Positions 14,303 through 55,627 of a DNA stretch of 64,000 bases are shown one piece after another. Source of the DNA: Arthrobacter dokdonellae. Lineage in GTDB: Bacteria > Actinomycetota > Actinomycetes > Actinomycetales > Micrococcaceae. A program made the translations under genes and the position numbers. The notes beneath the pieces are model-generated. The model did no database searches. It had not been told where the DNA came from and saw only the letters and a program-made list of their open reading frames with translations. Where the stretch lies: positions 4,278,001 through 4,342,000 of the forward strand of contig NZ_CP029642.1 of the NCBI RefSeq assembly GCF_003268655.1. The letters are read 5' to 3'. Numbering within the stretch: position 1 is the stretch's first letter; each line of letters starts with the position of its first letter.

Positions 14303-15523
14303 ATGACAGCACAAGACAATGCGGCAAACGGAAGCAATTCCGTGGAGGTCGTCATTCTCGCCGGGGCACGGACCCCGCAGGGACGGCTGAACGGGCAGCT
14401 GGCGCCTTTCTCCGCCGTCGAGCTCGGGACCAAGGCCATCGCCGCCGCCTTGGAGCGTTCCGGCGTCAAGGCGTCCGACGTCGACCATGTCATCATGGGG
14501 CAGGTGTTGCAGGCGGGTGCCGGCCAAAACCCGGCCCGCCAAAGTTCCGTTGGCGCCGGGATTGGCTGGAACGTGCCTGCCGTGACCCTGAACAAGGTGT
14601 GCCTTTCGGGGCTGACCGCGGTGATCGACGCCGCCCGGATGATCCGCAGCGGCGACGCCGACGTGGTGGTGGCCGGCGGCCAGGAATCCATGACCCGGGC
14701 CCCCCACCTGCTTCCCGGCTCCCGTCAGGGCTGGACCTACGGCGCCGTGCAGGCCTTGGACGTCGCGGCCCACGACGGGCTCACCGACGCCTTTGACGGC
14801 GAGTCCATGGGCCTGTCCACGGAACGGGGCAACATCCGCCTCAACATCAGCCGCACGGCACAGGACGAGGTCGCCGCGGCCTCACACCGCAGGGCCGCGG
14901 AGGCACAGCAGACGGGCGCTTTCGACGGCGAGATCGTCCCCGTCAGCGTCCCGCAGCGCAAGGGCGACCCCCTGGTGCTCACGCTCGACGAGGGCGTCCG
15001 GGCCCAAACCTCGATTGAATCCCTGGCCCCGCTGCGTCCGGCGTTCTCGGCCGACGGCGCCATTACGGCCGGCAACTCCTCCCCGCTGTCCGACGGCGCC
15101 GCGGCCATGGTGGTGGCCAGCCGGTCCTACGCGGAGGCTCACGGTCTCCCCTGGCTGGCCGTGGTCGGGGCCCCGGGCCAGGTGGCGGGCCCGGACAACT
15201 CGCTGCACTCACAACCGTCCCACGCCATCCAGAGTGCCCTGAAGAAGGCCGGATGGAGCGCCGAGGAGCTGGACTTCATCGAGATCAACGAGGCGTTTGG
15301 CTCGGTGGCCGTCCAGTCGCTGCGGGACCTGGACTACCCGCTCGAGAAATGCAACATCCACGGCGGCGCCATCGCCCTGGGGCATCCCATCGGAGCCTCC
15401 GGCGCGCGCCTGGCCCTGCATGCCGCCTCCGAGCTGGCACGGCGCGGGGCAGGCCGGGCCGCCGTGGCGCTGTGCGGCGGCGGCGGCCAGGGTGAGGCGC
15501 TGCTGCTGTTCCGGAACGCTTAG
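14303..15523 (+). CDS. Acetyl-CoA C-acetyltransferase (thiolase)
   Basis: A type II thiolase that condenses or cleaves acetoacetyl-CoA and longer 3-ketoacyl-CoAs. At 406 residues it has family length. The nucleophilic Cys100 lies in NKVCLSG, the histidine motif is GGAIALGHPIGASG near residue 355, and the second active Cys is in CGGGGQGEA near the C-terminus. An AAGGAG ribosome binding site precedes the ATG. The stop codon overlaps the next gene by one base (TAGTG), so the two are coupled. Biosynthetic (PhaA or AtoB) versus degradative (FadA) use cannot be decided from sequence alone. Confidence 0.92.
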   Translation: MTAQDNAANGSNSVEVVILAGARTPQGRLNGQLAPFSAVELGTKAIAAALERSGVKASDVDHVIMGQVLQAGAGQNPARQSSVGAGIGWNVPAVTLNKVCLSGLTAVIDAARMIRSGDADVVVAGGQESMTRAPHLLPGSRQGWTYGAVQALDVAAHDGLTDAFDGESMGLSTERGNIRLNISRTAQDEVAAASHRRAAEAQQTGAFDGEIVPVSVPQRKGDPLVLTLDEGVRAQTSIESLAPLRPAFSADGAITAGNSSPLSDGAAAMVVASRSYAEAHGLPWLAVVGAPGQVAGPDNSLHSQPSHAIQSALKKAGWSAEELDFIEINEAFGSVAVQSLRDLDYPLEKCNIHGGAIALGHPIGASGARLALHAASELARRGAGRAAVALCGGGGQGEALLLFRNA

Positions 15524-16017
15524 TGGGCTCGGCCCGGGCCGGTGGAACACCGACCGGCCGGGCCCGGGTGGCCGCCGACGCCGCCGCCCGGGGCCTCGCG
15601 GTGGAAATCATCCCGCGGCCGGTTGCCAACTCGCTGGCCGAAGCCGCCGCGCTGATCGGCGTCACGCCGTCGGACATCGTCAAGTCGCTGGTGGTCAAGC
15701 GCAGCGACGACACGTTCCTGTTTGCCCTGGTGCCCGGCGGGCGCACCATCTCCTGGCCGAAGCTGCGCTCCGTGGTTGGCGTGAACAAACTGCAGATGCC
15801 CAAGCCGGACGTCGCCCTGGCCGCCACCGGCTACGAGCGGGGCACCATCACCCCGCTTGGAAGCACGACGGCGTGGCCCGTGTTTGTCGATGAAAGCGTG
15901 GCCGGGCGGCGGGTGGCCCTGGGGGCAGGCGAACACGGCTACAGCATGTTTGTCGAAGCGGACGCCCTCATCTCCGCCCTCGACGCCACCGTTGCGGACA
16001 TCTCGGTTCCGGAGTAG
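15523..16017 (+). CDS. YbaK/EbsC family aminoacyl-tRNA deacylase
   Basis: A small protein of the YbaK/ProX-type editing family, whose members hydrolyse mischarged tRNA such as Cys-tRNA(Pro) or Ala-tRNA. The 164 residues span one domain, with the conserved lysine in IVKSLVVK, the segment FALVPGGRTIS and the C-terminal GxG loop ALGAGEHGYSM. It starts at a GTG that shares a base with the thiolase stop codon, with no separate ribosome binding site, so translation probably depends on the upstream gene. A functional link with the thiolase is not obvious. A tandem repeat array begins three bases after its stop. Confidence 0.85.
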   Translation: MGSARAGGTPTGRARVAADAAARGLAVEIIPRPVANSLAEAAALIGVTPSDIVKSLVVKRSDDTFLFALVPGGRTISWPKLRSVVGVNKLQMPKPDVALAATGYERGTITPLGSTTAWPVFVDESVAGRRVALGAGEHGYSMFVEADALISALDATVADISVPE

Positions 16018-16019
16018 CG

Positions 16020-16090
16020 ACGCTCCTGCAGGTCCGGGGCGTTCTGCGGCGGCGGTCCTGCAGGTCCGGGGCGTTGTGCAGTGGCGGTCC
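16020..16090. repeat. 32-nt tandem repeat array, copy site 1
   Basis: Units start at 16020, 16052 and 16084, exactly 32 bases apart. The first core is ACGCTCC and the next two are GCGGTCC, each of the first two followed by TGCAGGTCCGGGGCGTT. The array starts right after the deacylase gene. The same core with the same spacing recurs at 16531, 49361 and 55585. Confidence 0.85.
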
Positions 16091-16396
16091 CGCTTTCCGT
16101 GATTCTCCAGTAATATCCGCCCGGGTCAAGCAACGGGAAATCGTGCAGTCCCCACTCCCGCAATGCCACGTACTCCACCACGGACCAGCCCGCTTTGCTG
16201 ACGAGAACACGCTCCGCCTCGAGATCGTCGGTCACCAGCACGAGTTCGCATGGATGGTGCCGCGCGTCAGTGCGATATAAGGCTGAACGCTGATGCGTCT
16301 ATCAATGGGGAGTTGAAGACCAAGAACTTCCGTGTAGAACTCCACGGTGGCGTCCGGGTCCACGGGAAAGATTTCGCAACGAAGTCATGTGGTCAT
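16086..16396 (-). pseudogene. Decayed VOC (glyoxalase-like) protein gene
   Basis: Two reading frames together give a recognisable vicinal-oxygen-chelate domain. The N-terminal part reads CEIFPVDPDATVEFYTEVLG, and the C-terminal part reads VTDDLEAERVLV, WGLHDFPLLDPGGYYWRIT. From the likely ATG (16396) the fourth codon is a stop (ATG ACC ACA TGA), and a frame change near 16250 is needed to join the halves. With both lesions the gene should be inactive. I infer an ancestral protein of about 105-120 residues. No intact neighbour suggests its former role. Confidence 0.65.
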
Positions 16397-16530
16397 CGGC
16401 CCAGTTTTTCCGGCATCGGCGGAGCCCGCGATAGCGGCGGCTGCGGCGCGGCGCGCCCGAAGCTCCCGAGCGTTTTCCGCAGCCCGCGTTCCCCCTTTGA
16501 CGACAGTCGCAGAACACCCCGCCCGCAGAG

Positions 16531-16601
16531 GGAGCGTCCTGCATTTCAACGCCAAAGGTGCAGGAGCGTTTCGCATTTCAACGCCAAAGGTGCAGGAGCG
16601 T
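16531..16601. repeat. 32-nt tandem repeat array, copy site 2
   Basis: GGAGCGT occurs at 16531, 16563 and 16595, exactly 32 bases apart. Between them GCATTTCAACGCC and AAAGGTGCA are repeated identically, giving two perfect 29-nt units at 16541 and 16573. The array lies just beyond the rplL terminator. Confidence 0.9.
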
Positions 16602-16617
16602 CCCTGGCTCGACATGC

Positions 16618-16651
16618 AAGAAGCCCCGCACCAGACGGTGCGGGGCTTCTT
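16618..16651 (-). terminator. Terminator after rplL
   Basis: A perfect 15-bp stem with a 4-nt loop lies 18 bases beyond the rplL stop. The 3' arm on the minus strand ends CTTCTT. Confidence 0.8.
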
Positions 16652-16669: not shown

Positions 16670-17047
16670 TTACTTGACGGTAACCGTGGCGCCGGCAGCT
16701 TCGAGGGCTTCCTTGGCCTTCTCGGCAGCTTCCTTGGTGGCGCCTTCGAGGACAGCCTTGGGAGCGGAGTCAACGACGTCCTTGGCCTCCTTCAGTCCGA
16801 GGGAGGTCAGGGCGCGCACCTCCTTGATGACGGCAATCTTCTTGTCGCCAGCGGCTTCGAGGATCACGTCGAACTCGGTCTTCTCTTCCTCGGCCTCGGC
16901 AGCAGCGCCGCCGGCGGGGCCGGCAACTGCAACAGCAGCAGCGGTAACTTCAAAGACCTCTTCGAACTTCTTCACGAACTCGGAGAGTTCGATGATGGTC
17001 AGTTCCTTGAAAGCTTCAATGAGCTCGTCGTTGGTGAGCTTAGCCAT
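16670..17047 (-). CDS. rplL: 50S ribosomal protein L7/L12
   Basis: L7/L12 forms the flexible stalk of the 50S subunit that recruits translation GTPases. The 125-residue protein has an N-terminal dimerisation helix ([21 protein letters not shown]), an Ala/Gly/Glu-rich hinge and the C-terminal domain with KTEFDVIL and [12 protein letters not shown]. It follows rplJ by 143 bases in the classic rplJL order and is closed by its own terminator. Confidence 0.98.
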
Positions 17048-49360: not shown

Positions 49361-49400
49361 AGGAGCGTCCGCCGAAAAGGCCCCGGAACTGAAGGAGCGT
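49361..49400. repeat. 32-nt tandem repeat array, copy site 3
   Basis: AAGGAGCGTCCG occurs twice with AGGAGCGT at 49361 and 49393, exactly 32 bases apart. The array ends 12 bases from the murB stop. It has the same core and spacing as the arrays at 16020, 16531 and 55585. Confidence 0.8.
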
Positions 49401-49411
49401 CCGGGGGCGGG

Positions 49412-50494
49412 TCAGAGCTGGCAGCCCACCAGCACCGGCTCCGGGTGCAGGGTGATGCCGAATTGGCGCACGACGCCGGCGCGCACCTCCCGCGCGACCG
49501 CAAGTACGTCTTCTGCCGAAGCCCCGCCACGGTTCGTGACGGCGAGCGTGTGCTTGGTGGACAGGGCAGCGCGGCGGGACGCCACTCCGCCGCGCTTCCT
49601 GCCATCGAGCGCGAGGCCGTACCCCTTGGAAAAGCCCGCATGTTCAATCAGCCAGGCGGCGCTGAGCTTGGTCAGCCCGGCGGCGGCGGGGTAGCGCGGG
49701 GCGTCTGCGGGCAGTGACGCGGCCTCGGCGGCGCCGACGATCGGGTTGGTGAAGAAGGAGCCCGTGGACCAGGTGTCGCGGTCCGCCGCATCCAGCACCA
49801 TGCCCTTGGAGGCGCGCAGTTCCAGTACGGTGCGGCGCAAATCCAGCGCATTGGCGCGCCTGCCCACCTCAACGCCGAGGCGGCGGGCCAGCTCGGCGTA
49901 CTTCACGGGGGCGCTCATGCGGCCCAGGAGCAGCTGGAACTCCACGGTCAGCACCACGAAGCGGGGCGAGCCGTTGACAGTGGTCTGCTTGATGATGGAA
50001 TCCCGGTAGCCAAACTTCAGCTCCGAATTGGTAAAGGTGCGCACGGCATCCTTCTCGCGGTCCCAGACGCGCACGGCGGCGACGGTCTGCGCGACGTCGG
50101 CGCCGTAGGCGCCCACATTTTGCACGGGTGTGGCCCCGGTGAGGCCGGGAATGCCGGAGAGGGCCTCCAGCCCGCTCCAGGCGTGCAGCACCGACTGGTG
50201 GACAAAGCTGTCCCAGTCGTGGCCGGCCGCAACCACCACGGAGGCCCCGCCACAGGAGTCCTCGGCAGTTGCCTTGAAGCCCTGGCTGGCAATCTTCAGG
50301 ACCGTGCCGTCGAAGCCGTCGTCCGAGACCACCAGGTTGGACCCGCCACCCACAATCAGGAGCGGCTCGCCGGCGTGGTCGGCGGTGCGGACCGCGGCAA
50401 TGATCTCCGCCTCGGTGGCAGCTTCCACGTAGGTGCGCGCGGGTCCCCCTACGCCGAGGGTGGTCAGGGAACTCAGCAGCACGTTTTCACTCAC
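49412..50494 (-). CDS. murB: UDP-N-acetylenolpyruvoylglucosamine reductase
   Basis: MurB reduces UDP-GlcNAc-enolpyruvate to UDP-MurNAc, the second committed step of peptidoglycan synthesis, using FAD and NADPH. The 360-residue protein has the FAD-binding TLGVGGPARTYVEA and GGGSNLVVSD, the active-site region SAAWLIEHAG and the C-terminal LHPEPVLVG with the catalytic Glu. It starts at a GTG inside the stop of the upstream MFS gene (GTGA overlap). A TACTGT six bases before the GTG may also give it a leaderless internal promoter. Confidence 0.96.
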   Translation of the reverse strand: MSENVLLSSLTTLGVGGPARTYVEAATEAEIIAAVRTADHAGEPLLIVGGGSNLVVSDDGFDGTVLKIASQGFKATAEDSCGGASVVVAAGHDWDSFVHQSVLHAWSGLEALSGIPGLTGATPVQNVGAYGADVAQTVAAVRVWDREKDAVRTFTNSELKFGYRDSIIKQTTVNGSPRFVVLTVEFQLLLGRMSAPVKYAELARRLGVEVGRRANALDLRRTVLELRASKGMVLDAADRDTWSTGSFFTNPIVGAAEAASLPADAPRYPAAAGLTKLSAAWLIEHAGFSKGYGLALDGRKRGGVASRRAALSTKHTLAVTNRGGASAEDVLAVAREVRAGVVRQFGITLHPEPVLVGCQL

Positions 50495-55584: not shown

Positions 55585-55627
55585 ACGCTCCTGCAGCTTT
55601 GGCGGCTTTTTCGGCAACGCTCCTGCA
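55585..55627. repeat. 32-nt tandem repeat array, copy site 4
   Basis: ACGCTCCTGCA occurs at 55585 and 55617, exactly 32 bases apart. It is the reverse complement of the TGCAGGAGCGT core at 16531-16601, and CTTTGG flanks it as it does there. The array lies between two minus-strand genes, about 43 bases after the DUF2797 stop. Confidence 0.85.

Follow-up and report, generated by a model that had tools for sequence, protein, structure and literature searches.

Tandem 32-base repeat units with species-specific spellings behind the genes of Arthrobacter

It was found that Arthrobacter dokdonellae carries, just behind the stop codons of many genes, short arrays of a repeat unit of 32 bases. An array usually consists of two to five units placed head to tail, and in most arrays their orientation is that of the preceding gene. 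Other species of the genus have arrays of the same kind in spellings of their own, in part behind the same genes. These arrays may be DNA sites at which a putative DNA-binding protein, adapted to each species, marks the gene end or insulates it, a reading to which I give, judging from sequence, slightly less than an even chance. The original prediction had started from the motif GGAGCGT, repeated with a period of 32 bases at four sites. It lacked the longer conserved unit and the sense polarity behind stop codons, and GGAGCGT is one spelling of the core only.

The repeat unit and its four sites in the window

The unit has the form ACGC-n5-CA-n2-T-n2-GG plus 14 freer bases, 32 bases in total. 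A block of about 18 bases is conserved, and the following 14 are nearly free in their letters except for an A-tract near column 25, which lies on either strand. The consensus of 52 exact units of the own genome (G000), written in the ACGC orientation, is ACGCTCC-TGCAG-AT-CC-GGGGC, followed by a T-rich, otherwise free stretch. Where columns 24-26 hold an A/T triplet, AAA or TTT outnumbers mixed triplets by 27 to 12 in G000, 52 to 17 in G006 and G014 combined, 23 to 5 in G017, and 30 to 11 in a set of other genomes; for comparison, intergenic DNA free of arrays has a homopolymer share of 0.41, and coding DNA one of 0.45. On the sense strand, TTT is more frequent there than AAA. The units of G006 and G014 have a second A-tract, the two (columns 14-16 and 24-26) being about one turn apart. 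Near-duplicate units were removed before the folding, covariation, and A-tract counts. Units running into an inverted core were also removed for the A-tract counts (120 to 103 in G000, 142 to 138 in G006 plus G014), and the G017 and other-genome sets are a hand-copied part of the listed matches, with 34 and 63 units left.

The window, that is, the whole stretch of 64,000 nucleotides that was analysed, has four sites. Site 1 (16020..16090, + strand) follows a gene at 15523-16017 in its sense, with units at 16020 and 16052 and the core of a third unit at 16084. The 32-base step predicted for this triple holds, but the exact core does not recur: ACGCTCC, which is GGAGCGT on the - strand, is present only in the first unit at 16020, and the units at 16052 and 16084 have GCGGTCC. 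Site 2 (16506..16601, - strand) reads in the sense of an rplL-like gene (16670-17047) and is composed of full units at 16601-16570 and 16569-16538 and a degenerate unit at 16537-16506. Here the core and the step are both exact, as predicted, with GGAGCGT on the + strand at 16531, 16563, and 16595; these are the pair matches at contig positions 4294531 and 4294563 in the genome scan. A hairpin with perfect 15-base arms (16618..16651, no strand) lies between the rplL-like stop codon and site 2. By its looks it would be an ordinary intrinsic terminator, and a similar hairpin is found 3′ of rplL in the congener rows examined. About 430 bases separate sites 1 and 2 (16100-16500). Two ORFs tried in this stretch gave no Pfam match, and the congeners examined have a much shorter gap or other repeats at this place.

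Site 3 (49362..49400, - strand) is one unit plus the next core, with the stop codon of a murB-like gene (49412-50494, - strand) 11 bases before it. Its core and step were predicted correctly; only the start, placed at 49361, is off by one, GGAGCGT lying at 49362 and 49394. Site 4 (55585..55623, + strand) is also one unit plus the next core, and the predicted core is present on the - strand at 55585 and again at 55617, a step of 32. The claim that the sites lie at gene ends is true of sites 1 to 3. Site 4 lies between called genes that are both on the - strand, has the opposite, + sense, and is an exception to the polarity rule. Such exceptions, site 4 among them, may be real or may be gene-calling errors. 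The gene names tRNA_edit, MFS, MurB, and thiolase are based on Pfam, and all others were given by eye. On its own, GGAGCGT is no more frequent in the window than chance predicts (13 copies versus 13.00 expected).

Genome-wide spacing and place behind genes

The predicted excess of GGAGCGT pairs over chance was borne out in the whole genome, where a search allowing steps of 18 to 47 gave 60 matches (33 and 27 by strand) versus 0 for a reversed-pattern control. The predicted preference for the 32-base step also stood: 52 of the 60 pairs are exactly 32 apart, six are at 30, 31, or 33, and two are at 41 and 47, and the preference recurs in relatives. There are 59 unique pairs, because the ends of contig C1 overlap and one place is counted twice (matches 10826 and 4351570). 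The overlap is about 18 kb long, and the compared bases are identical (6057/6057). As the circular assembly is untrimmed, counts near the contig ends double. Contig C1 is nearly free of GGAGCGT pairs from about 2.36 to 3.59 Mb, with one odd-step match at 2.69 Mb; dnaA is at 0.51 Mb, and the pair-poor gap takes in the point opposite the origin, reaching further on one side. The second contig of G000 (C2, about 171 kb) has none of the 60 pairs, about two being expected.

Searches beyond this single spelling gave the same step. A spelling-free pattern with steps of 22-52 had 175 matches in 23 genomes of the genus versus 9 for its reversed control, and among the 151 matches listed, 140 are at 32, 10 at 31 or 33, and one at 42. 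The sequence TGNNGGAGCGT occurs 174 times in G000 (reversed control, 35). A weight-matrix scan, which covered fetched stretches selected for carrying arrays, found 152 units in 247 kb of G000 (control 17), 109 in 122 kb of G006 (control 1), and 84 in 115 kb of G014 (control 2). Same-strand neighbours at most 200 bases apart have a step of 32 in 65 of 76 cases in G000, 72 of 73 in G006, and 50 of 51 in G014. When only diverged neighbours are taken (at least 8 differences in columns 13-32), the step is 32 in 46/57, 47/47, and 30/30 cases, respectively; G006 and G014 combined keep it in 77 of 77 pairs, and it is looser in G000, where 11 of 57 are off 32. Some adjacent units are identical or nearly so, and neighbouring spacers are often alike. 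Among the 52 exact units of the own genome, no whole array was found copied to another locus, the contig-end duplicate excepted.

The predicted bias to gene 3′ ends was confirmed, and it comes with a polarity. With 469 genes from a home-made caller, 99 of 117 arrays have the orientation of the gene directly before them (42/53 in G000, 31/34 in G006, 26/30 in G014), and one of the 53 G000 arrays lies inside a called ORF. The median gap from the stop codon to the first unit is 13 bases in G000, 6 in G006, and 7.5 in G014, with outliers of up to 139, 2299, and 136, respectively. A count made independently of the gene calls found a stop triplet at most 14 bases upstream of the first unit in 25/62, 25/38, and 22/31 arrays of the three genomes, the baseline share of random windows being 0.19 for G000 and 0.24 for G006/G014.

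For 71 of the 117 arrays, the same-strand gene has a convergent neighbour downstream. Convergent genes often have two opposed arrays between them that run into each other, in many cases through a palindrome such as ACGCTCCTTCACCCGGTGAAGGAGCGT; the distance between the two arrays varies. At locus L323 (G016, 3′ of a livF-like gene), the entire array forms a single long, nearly perfect palindrome whose arms measure about 44 bases each. It was assessed whether arrays take the place of hairpin terminators. Among 256 gene ends, with 9 single-unit ends set aside, perfect inverted repeats of at least 8 bp were found at 16/67 convergent and 4/25 codirectional ends with arrays, versus 9/47 convergent and 14/108 codirectional ends without arrays, which is no clear difference.

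Species spellings and shared gene ends

Arrays of ACGCSGTATCAC, again 32 bases apart, were found in G006 and G014; the full spelling, as read in the gap behind rplL, is ACGCSGTATCAC-YTTTGG. When 23 genomes were searched for this spelling, pairs turned up only in G006 (58) and G014 (45), the remaining 21 having none (control 0), and among the matches listed the step is 32 with one exception at 33. GGAGCGT pairs, sought in 58 relatives including the own genome, are numerous only within the genus (for example, 53 in G004, 47 in G020, and 46 in G017), and G003 and G018 have none. The spelling-free pattern matched 40 of 295 genomes of the family. It is present in 20 of the 23 genomes of the own genus, with 1 to 78 matches each and no match in G010, G011, and G018, and in 15 of the 23 genomes of one other genus. 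Outside these two genera, there are five single matches in four further genera, which is the control level (five single matches for the reversed pattern). In a scan of named genomes, array-like units among the 80 loci listed belong to Arthrobacter and Pseudarthrobacter records, and the other units appear to be chance or simple repeats. Two exact patterns gave 0 matches in a viral collection, a result that covers those two spellings only.

The letters at columns 5-8 differ between genomes, examples being TCCT in G000; SGTA in G006 and G014; TCTC in G249, G258, and G273; CCGC or CCCA in G082, G213, and G306; CGCA in G005; TATC in G021; and TCGC in G015 and G017, both of which mix TCGC with TCCT. 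Cores of an ACCCTCC type, which the spelling-free pattern misses, are present in G004, G010, and G019. Where opposed arrays meet in G006 and G014 at L250 and L282, the palindromes between them are spelled CCTC and TCTC, unlike the surrounding arrays, and look like relics of an older dialect.

Some array-bearing gene ends are common to several species. Among 23 rows of the rplL gap, one of which ends at a contig start, G000, G004, G006, and G014 have an array, and it lies beyond the terminator hairpin. A comparison of 20 fetched loci of G006 with 19 of G014 gave 12 matching pairs, each with a match of at least 2.9 kb; arrays are seen on both sides in six of these 12 pairs, and one further pair was displayed outside its arrays. 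Five array-bearing ends of G000 (the rplL gap, S1657700, S1843800, S3762100, and S3840800) also carry arrays in G006 or G014, and G000 keeps its own spelling at them. At S720500 only one flank matches, and at S4218000 G006 has a large hairpin instead of an array.

Behind four gene ends, 78 congener regions were read, two of them incomplete. For the end of an aldehyde dehydrogenase-like gene, 17 rows were read. ACGC-type units are present in 11 of them, always in the spelling of the genome concerned, and in 9 of these 11 genomes they come after the stop codon and before a conserved hairpin. Variant repeats on the far side of the hairpin are found in G001, G004, and G022, and no repeats were seen at this end in G011, G017, and G018. 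Behind a topoisomerase-like gene (22 rows), there are units in G001, G004, and G022 and variant units in G010 and G019. The form ACGC-n5-CAGCAAYGG is found genome-wide in G002 (78) and G013 (39), with 14 in G021, and therefore the argument for inheritance rests on G008, G009, and G020. G008 has this form once, in its own TCCT spelling, at the aldehyde dehydrogenase-like end, the same gene end at which G002, G013, and G021 have such units. In G009 and G020, two of three such units lie at this end. This suggests that columns 5-9 may have changed in place at shared gene ends. A second repeat, about 100 bases long and bounded by inverted ends (core resembling TTTTTCCGGCGACTATCCGACG and AAAGGAGACG), recurs in several congeners at L060, L062-L065, L072 (behind rplL), L284, and L303, and is MITE-like in appearance.

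Possible roles and comparison with known systems

The original prediction left the choice between a bound protein and a structured 3′ RNA. Evidence favours a DNA-bound protein over a folded RNA because diverged units keep the step, the A-tract stays fixed, and base-pair covariation is absent; the protein and its helical phasing would be the putative part. An A-tract at a fixed place on either strand I read as DNA shape and, together with the fixed step, as a protein on one DNA face. The spacing is kept while the spacer letters vary, as would be expected of a phased protein-binding array. A putative sequence-specific protein would bind unit after unit on the same side of the helix, 32 bp being about three turns, and form a polar row, perhaps a filament, at the gene end. 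This row would stop or insulate transcription or would anchor another chromosomal protein. The protein would differ between species, and the core letters, above all columns 5-9, would have changed with it in place. The full version, rather doubtful as a whole, is that two genera have a chromosomal system in which a species-tuned DNA-binding protein, lined up in polar rows on arrays with 32-bp phasing immediately after stop codons, ends or insulates transcription, and in which its recognition letters are rewritten at dozens of loci as the protein changes. One factor per species is too simple, since G015 and G017 mix two spellings. I also count against the protein the looser step of G000, the preference for TTT over AAA in the sense strand, the variable distance between meeting arrays, and the null result for hairpin replacement.

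An RNA element would explain the sense polarity and the short distance to the stop codon (median, 6 to 13 bases) no less well. Transcribed arrays might act as tandem terminators or stabilise mRNA 3′ ends: the sense ACGCUCC of G000 can pair with GGGGCGU (with one G-U pair) before a T-rich stretch, strong hairpins arise where two arrays meet, and units between the stop codon and the conserved hairpin of the aldehyde dehydrogenase-like end would be in the transcript. For columns 1-27, the sense strand also gives the more stable fold (-6.9, versus -5.0 for the antisense strand). However, no distant column pair covaries as base pairs inside the units of the own genome, G006/G014, G017, or the others, and shuffling the columns of own-genome units hardly changes how well they fold (z -1.2 to 0.1). 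In G006/G014, the folds of the 119 unit pairs are better than those of their shuffles on either strand, but once 23 inverted-core pairs are dropped (119 to 96), the excess is gone in sense (z -0.5) and small in antisense (z -2.5); a block shuffle gives z -1.8 and -1.4. An RNA hairpin inside the unit was thus set aside as the main driver. The array behind rplL lies past the terminator, and an exact 14-base spacing would have no reason in an unstructured RNA spacer. I regard an RNA-level element as unlikely.

BIMEs bind gyrase, and the place of the arrays behind genes, often convergent ones, as well as the A-tracts about one turn apart in G006/G014, would suit a BIME-2-like dock where supercoils at gene ends are relieved or absorbed by DNA gyrase or a general nucleoid protein. 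Neither kind of protein needs an 18-base core or species spellings, and few arrays lie near the expected terminus of G000; this role is distinctly improbable. Least probable, and very unlikely, is that the units are selfish or neutral repeats that spread and duplicate locally and have no job. Nearly identical neighbours look like recent local duplications, and several congeners have few or no units, but diverged neighbours keep the 32-base step, the core is kept while the rest is free, different species share array-bearing gene ends, and whole-array copies were not seen among the exact own-genome units.

Like CRISPR arrays, which join a conserved part to a variable part of constant length, these units have a conserved part and a variable part of constant length; in contrast to them, adjacent variable parts are often alike, and two to five units stand behind stop codons at dozens of loci. 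Iterons and the tandem transposase sites at element ends consist of a protein site repeated in direct orientation with roughly helical spacing. The present units are direct repeats at about that spacing too, with protein binding putative, but they occupy dozens of chromosomal loci behind ordinary genes and are common to species. They also differ from tandem intrinsic terminators: a stem and a T-run in each unit were not found, nothing covaries, and columns 24-26 are TTT or AAA. Inverted pairs of DNA uptake sequences serve as terminators. The uptake sequences of Neisseriaceae are a short genomic signal present in thousands of copies, whose dialects are thought to follow the receptor, according to the available part of PMC3630211. 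Species dialects of one short signal are present here too, but with about one or two hundred copies in the stretches and searches made, in tandem and behind genes.

Repeats of the REP/BIME kind (GTAG and CGTC superfamilies) are described, in the available part of PMC3733652, as short, intergenic sequences with more than 100 copies per genome and species-specific types, which lie behind genes and between convergent genes, often less than 20 bases from the stop codon. The arrays are likewise intergenic, behind genes, and high in copy. REP units are palindromes, mostly in opposed pairs, with negligible head-to-tail dimers in the CGTC class (PMC3733652, same part), whereas the present units are head to tail, are not palindromes of 20-40 bp, and are palindromic only at junctions of opposed arrays. 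GTAG-class REPs are tied to RAYTs in the same part of that source. The RAYT (Y1 transposase, PF01797) is absent in G000 and present in two of 23 genomes of the genus (G017 and G020), and mobilisation by a RAYT was rejected for the own genome, which lacks the Y1 transposase. The main text of PMC3733652 has neither "arthrobacter" nor "actinobacteria", the available part of PMC2817692 does not name Arthrobacter, and literature searches turned up no such repeat family for Arthrobacter and no described counterpart of the gene-end dialect.

No family considered has all of these features, and I call the arrays a new variant among short gene-end repeats, possibly a new kind. If a protein reads them, the genus would possess a device for gene ends that belongs to neither of the usual routes, hairpin and Rho. 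Species that differ in spelling could then serve as natural pairs in tests of how a DNA-binding protein and its sites, dozens of them, change in step. Even if the function is humbler, the repeat family merits annotation for its almost constant ruler, its sense polarity, and its species spelling.
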